From: Phoronis ovalis
Lineage: Eukaryota > Phoronida > Phoronidae
Direction: 5' to 3'
Length of the DNA stretch: 35,522 bases
Assembly (NCBI GenBank): GCA_028565635.1
Contig: JAOXYB010017961.1
Span: 1-35,522, forward strand
A model generated the notes under the pieces. It ran no database searches. It had not been told where the DNA came from and was given only the letters and a program-made list of their open reading frames with translations. Both the position numbers and the translations under genes were made by a program. Each line of letters starts with the position of its first letter. Position 1 is the first letter of the stretch. Shown one piece after another: positions 4,631 to 9,639 of this stretch.

Positions 4631-7600
4631 ATGCCTGGAAGAGGACGCAGATATTCCATTGAAAAGTCTCAAGAGAATGTTTGGAAAACCCCAAGGTTGG
4701 AAATAGTTAATCAAGAAGCAATAAGTGAAAAACAAGAAAATGACGACAGAGATAAAGATAATGGTAATTTATTGACGTCATTGAAAGATGTTTTCGCTAC
4801 ATTATGTGAAGAGACCAGTTGCCATGGAATAAAATATGTCGGTGGATCGAAGTATTGTATCGCAAGAAGGTATAATGTTGAGACCTCTGCTATCCCAGCA
4901 GTAACCCTTTACTATAAACAACAACAACAAATACATATACAGGGTGACACAAAATATCATGAGCGATTTTGTTTTTATAAGTAATAAATTAAGCAAGATA
5001 AAGTCATATTCTTTACATTATCACAGACATTCATATAAAACAGTATAGTAACAGTAGTGGCTATTTTAAAGAACGCGCTCGTGTCTGATGGTGGAATTAG
5101 TTGATTCAGGCATTTTGAAGTAAAACGTAGTTTAAAGGCATACTTAGATTACGGAGTAAAATGTTTTCTACTGATACGATTCGAATCAAACCAGAAAAAT
5201 AAATAAGCCCAACCACGATTTACATGTATGGCCTATTTTTTATTCTGCTGTTCAAACCTTTATTATAATAGGAAGGTTACGTTCACGGGTTTCAGTTAAT
5301 TAAAAAATGTCCTAAAAAGTACGTAACCATGCGAATGAAATACGTACGTAAAGTGAGCTCCAGATTCAGATTCAGATTCAGCTCCAGATGATTCAGATTC
5401 GAAAAAAAACAAACTAAAATGCTCTAAATTGCAAATATTTCATAAATTAATGACTTTTCACAATTTTTTTGTTTCCACTAATCCCCCGCCACCCCCAACG
5501 ATTATCGGCGGTTCTTAAATATTTCAAACGATTTTTTTTAAATATATTCATGGATTTTTAATAATAAAATCCAGAAACAAGAGGTAATAGTTATAAAGGA
5601 ATCTCAATATACTCTTGGAATACTCACAAAAAAAGCTAAAAAAATATGTTGCCTAGCAACAAGGCATTCAACCATTTTGGTCGAAACATGCGGCCGCAAC
5701 GTTCGGACATAGTCTATTTCGAATCTGAATTTGAATCTGGAGCTGGGGTTCAAAAAATGTGTTTGGATCAAAATGTTCCAAAAGTTATTTTTTTGTAAAA
5801 GTCAGTGATCTTCACAAATTGCACTAAACATTATTTCTTTGCTGACTCCCACTTTTATGTAAACCCGTCTTTATGGGAAATTTTCGAAATATTTCAAATG
5901 ATTTTTTTGAATATATTCATGGATTTTTAATAATAAATGCAGAAACAAGAGGCAATAGTTATAAAGGAATCGTGATACACTCTTGGAATACTCACAAAAA
6001 AGCTAAAAAAATATGTTGCCTAGCAACAAGGCTTTCAACCATTTTGGTCGAAACATGCGGCCGCAACGTTCGGACATTTGAATCTGGAGCTGGGGTTCAA
6101 AAAAATGTGTTTGGATCAAAATGTTCCAAAAGTTATTTTTTTTATAAAAGTCAGTGATCTTCATAAATTGCACTGAATTTGAATCAAAAAAATGTGTTTG
6201 GATCAAAATGTTCCAAAATTTACTTTTTTTGTAAAAGTCAGTGATCTTCACAAATTGCACTAAAAATTATTTCTTTGCTGAATCCCGCTTTTATGGAAAC
6301 CGGTCTTTTTGGGAAATTATCGAAATAATTTATTTCAAATGATTTTTTTGAATATATTTATGGATTTTTAATAATAAAATGCAGAAACAACAGGCAACAG
6401 TTACAAAGGAATCTTAATGTACTCCTAGAATACTCACAAAAAGGCAAAACAATATGTTACCAGGCAACAAGGCTTCCAGCCATATTGGTCGAAATATGCG
6501 GCCGCAACGTTCGGACATAGTCTATTTCGAATCTGAATTTGAATCTAGAGCTGGGGTTCAAACAAATATGTTTGGATCAAAATGTTCCAAAAGTTATTTT
6601 TTTGTAAAAGTCGGTGATCTTCACAAATTGCACTAAAAATTATTTCTTTGCTGACTCCCACTTTTATGGAAACTCGTCTTGGAAACCTGAGGAGCCACTT
6701 CGTCTTACAGACAGTAGGTTGCACGCGGCAAAACTTCCAAGTTTTGTCTTTGATTTTTTGAGAAATTAATAGCGTTTTTTTTGCCTTTTCATATCGTGCA
6801 CATAGATAAAGAGATCATAAACATACTGAAACAATCCCGAGTCTCTCCGCAGGGGCGGATACAGAGCACAGTTGTGACAGGTTTCCGAGACTCGGACACC
6901 TTGTTTCCGCAGACCCAACTTTCAGTTGTTGGCCACTTTGTTCCCTCATATCTCAGTAAAAAGTCACCGTACTTTAAATATTGTGTGGTCCTTATTGGAC
7001 ATATATTAGACTCTGTTGAAGGAGTAAAATCCGAAACTCGTCAGTCGAACTATATGTCCCTGACTGACTACACACATTTTATTTGTCGGTACTGTCCTGA
7101 TTACACCAGGGGGTCTCCTTAATTAGGCTGCCAACTTTTCTACAAGAAAAGGCAACTTATTTTTTTACCTTTTTGGTGAGTATTCTAAGAGTATATTAAG
7201 ATTCCTTTATAACTAGTGCCGTTTGCTTCTGCATTTTGTTATTAAAAATCCATGGATATATTCAAAAAAATCATTTGAAATATTTCGAAAAAGTGGGAGT
7301 CAGCAAAGAAATAATTTTTAGTGCAATTTATGAAGATCACTGACTTTTATAAAAAAATAACTTTTGGAACATTTTGATCCAAACACATTTTTTTGAACCC
7401 CAGCTCCAGATTCAAATGTCCGAACGTTGCGGCCGCATTTTTCGACCAAAATGGTTGAAAGCCTTGTTGCTAGGCAACATATTTTAAAAGCTTTTTTGTG
7501 AGTATTCCAAGAGTGTATCACGATTCCTTTATAACTATTGCCTCTTGTTTCTGCATTTTATTATTAAAAAACCATGAATATATTCAAAAAAATCATTTGA

Positions 7601-9639
7601 AATATTTCGAAAATTTCCCATAAAGACGGGAGTGGGAGTCAGCAAAGAAATAATATTTAGTGCAATTTGTGAAGATCACTGACTTTTACAAAAAAATAAC
7701 TTTTGGAACATTTTGATCCAAACACATTTTTTGAACCCCAGCTCCAGATTCAAATTCAGATTCGAAATAGACTATGTCCGAACGTTGCGGCCGCATGTTT
7801 CGACCAAAATGGTTGAATGCCTTGTTGCTAGGCAACATATTTTTTTAGCTTTTTTTGTGAGTATTCCAAGAGTATATTGAGATTCCTTTATTGCCTCTTG
7901 TTTCTGGATTTTATTATTAAAAATCCATGAATATATTTAAAAAAATCGTTTGAAATATTTAAGAATCGCCGATAATCGTTGGGGGAGGCGGGGGATTAGT
8001 GGAAACAAAAAAATTGTGAAAAGTCATTAATTTATGAAATATTTGCAATTTAGGGCATTTTAGTTTGTTTTTTTCGAATCTGAATCTGGAGCTGACTTTA
8101 CGTTGAATCTGGAGCTGAATCTGGAGCTCACTTTACGTACGTGAATGAAATGGAAACATGTAACAGACTCTGCAAAATTCATATATAAATTAATTACAAA
8201 AATATGTATTTCCTCGGCAAGCACAACTCTTGCTCATATACAATAGCTGTAATTTTTTTTGCTGAGAGAATTTTCTATATTTCTTCCATGGAATGAATTG
8301 CCCAGTCGTGTAGCCTTTCTCCATAACATGGTATATCAAGATCATATATCAAACACAAAGTTTGTTCTTGGACTATGTTTTCATAAGCTATCTTTATATT
8401 GTACCTACACAATCAAGTCCGTAAAAAGAGCATGCTAGTATTTACCCAAATTTTACAAGAACTATATTTGAAATAAGCCAACGAAATTAAATGGATATGA
8501 TTTTTAATTAAATTTTCTTTATCATAGCAAAACACTGTGTTTATATGTTATTAATAGTTATGTTAAAATTCAATTCAAAATCGTTCACGTTATTTTGTTT
8601 CACCCTGTATAAGTCATATATTGAATAAATCTCCTAAAATCCAGTAACATTTGCATTGTTGTCACAATTTGCAATGAACTGTTTATGTTCTGTGCTATAG
8701 ATCTACAGGAAAACCACTGGTAATGTTGTATATGTACGAAAATATCAAGTTGGAAATCCAAATACCAGTAGTTTCTAAAAATTGTACCTATCAAATAAAA
8801 GTTAAATTGTTTGCTATTTTTGTACAGAATATTGTGGTTATGTCTGGTAATAGGAGCAAGTGTAGTAGTTTTCATCATTCTCAACAATGCAGTACAGACT
8901 TTCCTCAGAAAACCAGTCCAAACTAAACTTAGCGTCCAGTTCAGACGTCACATGCAATTTCCAACTGTAACAATTTGTAATTTAAATCGATTGCGGAAGA
9001 CCCACATATTACAATATCCAAATATAACTGAAGTTTTAAGAACCATATTCCCTATAACAATAGAGGATTACAATTTTAGTCCAAATTGGAGTGACCCAAT
9101 ATTTGCTCCATATGTGAATCAAGGAGAACAAACTTTACCACAAATTGCAATTGAAGCAGCTCACAAATTAGAAAATATGTTTATGTACTGTATTTGGAAT
9201 GGTAGATTAATTAACTGCAGTGAAGAATTTAAGATGGTAATTACAAATTTCGGAGTTTGCTACCAATTTAACTCAAATGGTACTTTAAATGCATCCCGTA
9301 TCGGTGCAGCATATGGATTGTGGTTGAGAGTTAACATAGAACAGTATGAATATTCTAATGGGGATAGTGATTCAGCTGGATTGAAGGTAGGATAAATAAT
9401 GTGGTACAAGGTAAAACCTTCATAATAAATAACATTGTTCACTAATTGAAGATTTTTTTTACTTATTTATCATTTTTGATAAAGTTAATGGAGTTTGGTT
9501 AAATGAACTACTGTTACAGAACTTCGAATATCTATTTGCACTGAGTCTCTATATCAAACATACTTTATTTTTACCTTACAATTTATGTATCTATATGCAC
9601 ACGCACACACACACGCCATCGTACATACATGCTTATACG

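Follow-up and report, generated by a model that had tools for sequence, protein, structure and literature searches.

The stretch of DNA analysed here (the window) comprises 35,522 nucleotides of contig JAOXYB010017961.1 from Phoronis ovalis (GenBank assembly GCA_028565635.1) and carries a foldback element of 2801 bp at positions 5342-8142, with no strand assigned, the limits of which are set by the sequence, the inverted arms and empty sites elsewhere in the genome. The 9-bp word GAATGAAAT abuts the element on both sides (5333-5341 and 8143-8151, unstranded) and is present in one copy only at the paralogous empty sites. The left tip, ACGTACGTAAAGTGAGCTCC (5342-5361, + strand), opens with a perfect palindrome of 8 bp, and the right tip (8123-8142, - strand) is its exact inverted copy, the ends being 20-bp inverted repeats with 100% identity. 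Short subterminal repeats of the GCTCCAGATTCAGATTCA type are found at 5353-5404 on the left (+; sequence and motif mapping) and at 8068-8132 on the right (-), where Tandem Repeats Finder gives a period of 12 at 8080-8128. A previous sequence-only reading of this DNA had proposed an intact-looking foldback transposon with perfect outer ends and a 9-bp target duplication. Nearly all of its points are borne out, and the foldback transposon itself is backed by the empty sites, by other copies with different duplications and by the anatomy of the arms. "Intact" applies to the structure and not to the coding capacity, since no transposase gene was found in the element.

The genome searched is a draft assembly of 77.4 Mb in 4805 contigs, in which the window contig is C392. 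Flank search and empty sites show that the element interrupts a dispersed host repeat, which forms the left flank (5200-5341, +; extent examined from 5200) and continues in the right flank (8143-8300, +; extent examined to 8300). This repeat measures about 290 bp or more, and its matches are mostly 72-83% identical. When the joined flanks were searched against the genome, 35 matches were obtained besides the window's own two flanks. Thirteen of them were aligned at the junction, and all 13 are uninterrupted, without insert. In each, the target word is single, identical to GAATGAAAT in five sites and with point differences in eight. Thus, the element and one 9-bp duplicate were gained at this locus, which is a true transposon insertion. 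It is almost certain that the inserted sequence is a mobile, non-autonomous foldback element with a 9-bp duplication.

The arms are made of units that are all related to one module of about 368 bp. On the left arm (+ strand), unit 1 spans 5593-5960 (368 bp; unit mapping and unit comparison), unit 2 spans 5961-6402 and includes an internal 87-bp duplication (array 6097-6261), and an incomplete unit 3 at 6405-6680 covers 277 of the 368 unit positions. On the right arm (- strand), a partial unit (7150-7210) is followed by unit 2 (7211-7532) and unit 1 (7533-7891). Unit mapping therefore confirms the repeat-built arms recognized earlier, with three units on the left and two plus a partial one on the right. 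The matching internal deletions are also found: both second units are without the same 20 bp, which are present in the first units and in left unit 3, so that stretches longer than one unit must have been copied or converted between the arms.

One inverted repeat of the arms extends over 261 nt at 100% identity (5593-5853 with 7631-7891), and further ones measure 219 nt (96%) and 139 nt (97%). Aligned arm against arm, 5403-5960 shows 6 substitutions in 541 aligned columns and 5961-6135 shows 4 in 175, as compared with 19 in 189 for the inner part, 6233-6453; the description of the arms as nearly identical is therefore valid for the outer arm and not for this inner part. Directly inside the perfect ends (5342-5402), 8 of 60 columns differ and the short repeats are shuffled. 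Within the element, the two first units are 99.4% identical and the remaining pairs 94-95%; among the units shown from other copies, the closest reaches 92.7% in the unit comparison. The symmetry of the arms would be best explained by arm-to-arm conversion or by template switching in a folded intermediate. The data fit both recent movement and arm homogenisation, with a perfect duplication and 99.4% identical first units, yet only 92.7% identity to the nearest foreign unit. The perfect duplication and the low divergence of the outer arms would fit a fairly young insertion, although this age is uncertain. It should be noted that the copy on contig C2721 has a 9/9 duplication but arms only 87.8% identical; hence, the two arms may already differ when an element inserts. 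At locus L015 (C4194), the outermost full arm units (876-1241 and 2197-2566) are 91.5% alike and at most 87.6% identical to any other unit; judged by sequence, they are a second case of position-matched arms.

Between the arms lies a loop (6690-7150, unstranded) in which the longest open reading frame (ORF) has 122 amino acids (aa) and no Pfam match. Relatives of the loop are found on C4121 and C1381, both with arm units. Others lie on C58 and C2243, and the roughly 3.3 kb fetched there showed no arm unit. The loop seems to be a passenger common to another dispersed sequence. Within it, at 6850-6886, a sequence of about 37 bp starting with CAGGGGCGGATA recurs in at least 31 other genomic places, six of the listed ones at 80 bp or less from the start of a contig; the loci fetched from C58 and C2243 lack it. 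The start of this sequence resembles a hAT-type tip, and the whole suggests a high-copy transposon where the assembly breaks. With its long, internally repeated terminal inverted repeats (TIRs) around a variable middle, and with dispersed copies bearing target-site duplications (TSDs), the element has the characters of FB-type foldback transposons.

No recognizable coding capacity is present in the copies examined. A first survey considered ORFs of at least 120 aa in the fetched loci and was judged by eye. A second one, of ORFs of at least 90 aa overlapping the family-match span at 47 loci including the window, gave 42 rows, six of which are spurious, being due to a stretch of N in L052 (1082 of 1351 letters). 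The longest of the other 36 has 175 aa, and Pfam returned no match for the 11 of these 36 that were searched, loop ORF included. None of the examined copies showed a transposase gene, although an ORF lying in a one-ended copy, in the part of its interior without family matches, could have escaped notice; the element is therefore considered non-autonomous.

The element is one of many scattered relatives, of a general type known from flies, mosquitoes and nematodes. The tip pattern ACGTACGTAAAGTGAGCTCC occurs at 48 genomic places with at most 2 mismatches, versus 1 for the reversed control, and a variant with an AACC tip at 54 places versus 0, the two lists overlapping. The fetched loci contain 57 candidate end pairs; a neutral rule, both ends with at most 3 mismatches in 16, is passed by 12. 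In seven of these 12, the flanking 9-bp words are at least 7/9 identical: 9/9 in C392 (the window element) and C2721, 8/9 in C99, and 7/9 in C4042, C2653, C3719 and C276. The sequence-only reading had called for a search for further copies that share these ends but are flanked by other 9-bp words, and such copies thus exist. It had also regarded copies without 9-bp duplications as evidence against its proposal, and the other five are of this kind (C271 with 6 identical positions, C1711 with 4, C3358 with 3, C2670 and C395 with 2); they are read as products of decay or rearrangement. Among the duplication lengths of 6 to 12 compared in the end pairs, none but 9 stands out; in C3358, the best flank agreement is at an 11-bp offset (8/11). 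The copy on C213, one end of which has 5 mismatches, shows a 9/9 duplication. It was added to the 12 rule-selected pairs after this agreement had been seen, giving a set of 13 in which eight reach 7/9 or more. When partners were permuted within this set (100,000 trials), six was reached in two trials and never exceeded, and none of the 156 mismatched cross-pairs reached 7/9. C4078, fetched later and outside both counts, has an 8/9 duplication.

The number of complete units per arm varies from none, in the 467-bp copy on C2721, to five plus partial ones, on C769. The latter arm lies at 5643-8177 of L010 (C769), and L019 (C4097) has four complete units and a partial unit reaching the contig edge (1-1910). 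Both arrays are possible nascent satellites; expanded arm-unit arrays of the Drosophila virilis foldback element Tetris are described as a satellite start (PMC4079207). A third tip variant, ACGAACGT, is carried by C4078 as well as by C1654, C1794, C2257, C2543, C3257 and C4102 (L072-L078). Of its eight ends, six are found no more than 200 bp from the end of a contig, which would be the expected picture for an abundant subfamily of nearly identical copies; this may be the youngest branch. The tip 16-mer had no match in viral contigs, the tip sequence was not found in the literature searched, and no paper dealing with the family was recognized from titles and the beginnings of abstracts. The family looks like a new one of a known kind, new in the sense that these searches did not recover it.

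According to their tips, the copies fall into two subfamilies, A (CTCC) and B (AACC). Each unit of the window element has one conserved 19-mer, GCGGCCGCAACGTTCGGAC (5690-5708, 6057-6075 and 6498-6516, +; 7418-7436 and 7776-7794, -), and all five have an inverted internal copy of the tip motif, AGCTCCAGATTC in four (5721-5747 and 6068-6094, -; 7399-7425 and 7737-7763, +) and the same with one change in the fifth (6529-6555, -). The 19-mer is found at 39 places with at most 1 mismatch, versus 0 in the control, all on 22 unit-bearing contigs. In the comparison of 50 units, the diagnostic columns of group A read AG (GAATCTGGAGCT) in 27 of 32 aligned units (AA in two, GG, AT and A-gap in one each), and those of group B, from AACC-tipped copies, read TT (GAATCTGGTTCT) in 12 of 15 (CT in one, a gap in two). 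TT occurs in no A unit and AG in no B unit. Three units, from L023 and L044, were placed in neither group: that of L044 (CTCC tip) reads AG, in agreement with A, and the two of L023, the AACC tip of which is imperfect, read TG and AT, neither type. A count of the exact word AG..CCAGATTC over the copies gave no internal AA word in the CTCC-tipped ones and no CT word in the AACC-tipped ones. The unit consensus of A and that of B share 78% identity, the sole identical stretch of at least 20 columns being the 22 bp GGCCGCAACGTTCGGACTTAGT. What is new here is this matched difference of tip and unit motifs between subfamilies; as a type, the element is familiar.

The matched difference suggests binding sites that co-evolve with the ends or are homogenised to them. 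It can tentatively be proposed, as a rather doubtful possibility, that each unit of about 368 bp is a putative transposase-recognition module, with an inverted tip motif beside the 22-bp core, the arms being recognition arrays the specificity of which switched together with the tips at the A/B split. The alternative, for which the chances appear about even and which is compatible with the overall explanation of the element given below, is that tips and units match through shared descent and minisatellite homogenisation, the unit motif having no binding role. The motif of A units is one of the better conserved parts of the unit (of 357 12-column windows, 21 score as high or higher, motif included), which speaks against mere homogenisation, as does the fact that the A/B difference extends to the tip, the subterminal repeats and the units, with the exclusive distribution of AG and TT. 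Moreover, the arm repeats of the Drosophila element Galileo contain tested transposase sites (PMC3688188). Other observations disfavor a binding role. In B units, motif conservation is 0.83 versus a unit average of 0.87, and 296 of 357 windows are at least as conserved; most B units contain two copies of the 12-bp word, as under homogenisation. Since the B units form their own clade, A and B may have separated in one event, and L023 combines an AACC tip with units of neither type.

Taken as a whole, the element is probably a non-autonomous foldback cut-and-paste DNA transposon moved in trans by a Mutator-like transposase. This reading is based on the 9-bp duplications, on the palindromic tip and on the 12-bp subterminal repeats, as in the mosquito element Muta1, and on the element Tm1 of Meloidogyne, which likewise has composite arms and 9-bp duplications. 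A transposase encoded elsewhere would recognize the tip ACGTACGTAAAGTGAG and the CTCCAGATTC-type subterminal repeats, excise the element and insert it through a 9-bp staggered cut, the repair of which would leave GAATGAAAT on both sides. The inverted tip-motif copies of the units may serve as extra binding sites. The arms would be kept alike through fold-back repair or arm-to-arm template switching, and unit number would shift by unequal exchange.

In Drosophila, the FB elements of the FB/NOF system have foldback arms and 9-bp TSDs. Rehavkus shows a 9-bp TSD, a minisatellite and TIRs of 26-400 bp (PMC6446971). In the superfamily of Mutator-like elements (MULEs), target duplications are of 8-11 bp (PMC6446971); the duplication found here falls in the MULE range. 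Muta1, from Aedes aegypti, is an active MULE classed by its authors as a type-2 foldback element. It shares with the present family an 8-9-bp TSD, a palindromic tip motif (imperfect and of 10 bp in Muta1, perfect and of 8 bp here), 12-bp subterminal tandem repeats and many non-autonomous derivatives with variable interiors (PMC5225508). In contrast, Muta1 has a transposase gene and TIRs of 145 bp, whereas the arms here can reach a kilobase or more and consist of units of about 368 bp. Tm1, a Mutator/foldback element, has composite TIRs of variable length, mostly 9-bp TSDs and transposase-less members; however, its arm repeats are of 13-15 bp, its two tips are unlike and a transposase-bearing member is known (PMC3169594). 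Tetris is similar in having no conserved ORF, an outer flanking domain, a variable middle, arms with a variable number of long tandem units (about 220 bp) in arrays that expand, and TSDs of 8-10 bp; its authors did not find a transposase-bearing copy (PMC4079207). By description, it differs from the present family, the unit of which is of about 368 bp and the tip ACGTACGT. Finally, Galileo, of the P superfamily, also has long TIRs that are repetitive internally and contain multiple transposase binding sites, but uses a P-type transposase (PMC3688188).

Several points weigh against a Mutator-like transposase. The MULE domain PF10551 was not found in the 77.4-Mb assembly, with the reservations that the control matched 3 of 14 genomes and that the draft is fragmented; the autonomous partner with a MULE transposase envisaged by the sequence-only reading was thus not found, and its Mutator-like assignment remains inferential. 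PF21056 also gave 0 matches, an uninformative result because its control matched nowhere, as opposed to the hAT dimerisation domain, a positive control with five genome matches. The profiles PF10551, PF21056, FLYWCH and IS1595 did not yield an autonomous partner, Rehavkus-type PHD and P-type THAP transposases lying outside this search. Five of the 12 rule-selected copies are without a recognizable TSD. Merlin elements make 8-9-bp duplications, and a transposase of Merlin/IS1595 type (DDE_Tnp_IS1595) is matched at two places in the genome. Foldback arms, moreover, arose in several superfamilies, Galileo having a P-type transposase (PMC3169594, PMC3688188).

One of the two Merlin-type matches (C1233:1254-1532) lies within an open frame of 201 aa. 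The single FLYWCH match is a zinc-finger ORF, C4065:1400-1840 (-). C4065 was rejected as an autonomous copy, its B-like end at 5546 opening away from this ORF; its other ORFs look, by eye, like retroelement pieces.

That the same mobile element depends on a transposase of another superfamily, Merlin (IS1595-like) or P/Galileo-like, is unlikely, although the two DDE_Tnp_IS1595 matches and the convergence of foldback architecture would favor it. No tip with at most 6 mismatches in 20 bp lies in the approximately 3 kb around either Merlin-type match, the only two inspected. Duplications are of 7 bp in Galileo, versus 9 bp here. In addition, the tip palindrome and the 12-bp subterminal repeats match those of mosquito MULEs (PMC5225508). 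A segmental inversion, an assembly artefact (which the sequence-only reading had itself envisaged) or a chance palindrome can be dismissed with near certainty, even in a draft of 4805 contigs and with long inverted repeats being often misassembled, in view of the 13 of 13 aligned empty sites, of the recurrence of these tips at dozens of places in the genome, of the 9-bp duplications in other copies and of the indel differences between the arms.

Pfam detected ASC (amiloride-sensitive sodium channel) and fasciclin domains in the ORFs of the window, which point to an animal genome. The ASC domain belongs to an open frame at 8799-9395, starting some 650 bp past the right end of the element; a search with an ASC-bearing ORF gave no homologue at E<=0.001.

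The reason for the long repetitive arms of foldback elements is unsettled. One proposal is that the specificity of transposase binding comes from the arm repeats (PMC3688188). The family described here lets this idea be tested, as it offers two subfamilies in each of which tips and units carry corresponding motifs, copies with anything from no complete unit to five per arm, and paralogous empty sites. If the arms were indeed recognition arrays, the family would offer a natural example of transposase sites that co-evolve at the ends and inside the element, and this would explain the growth of foldback arms by whole units.

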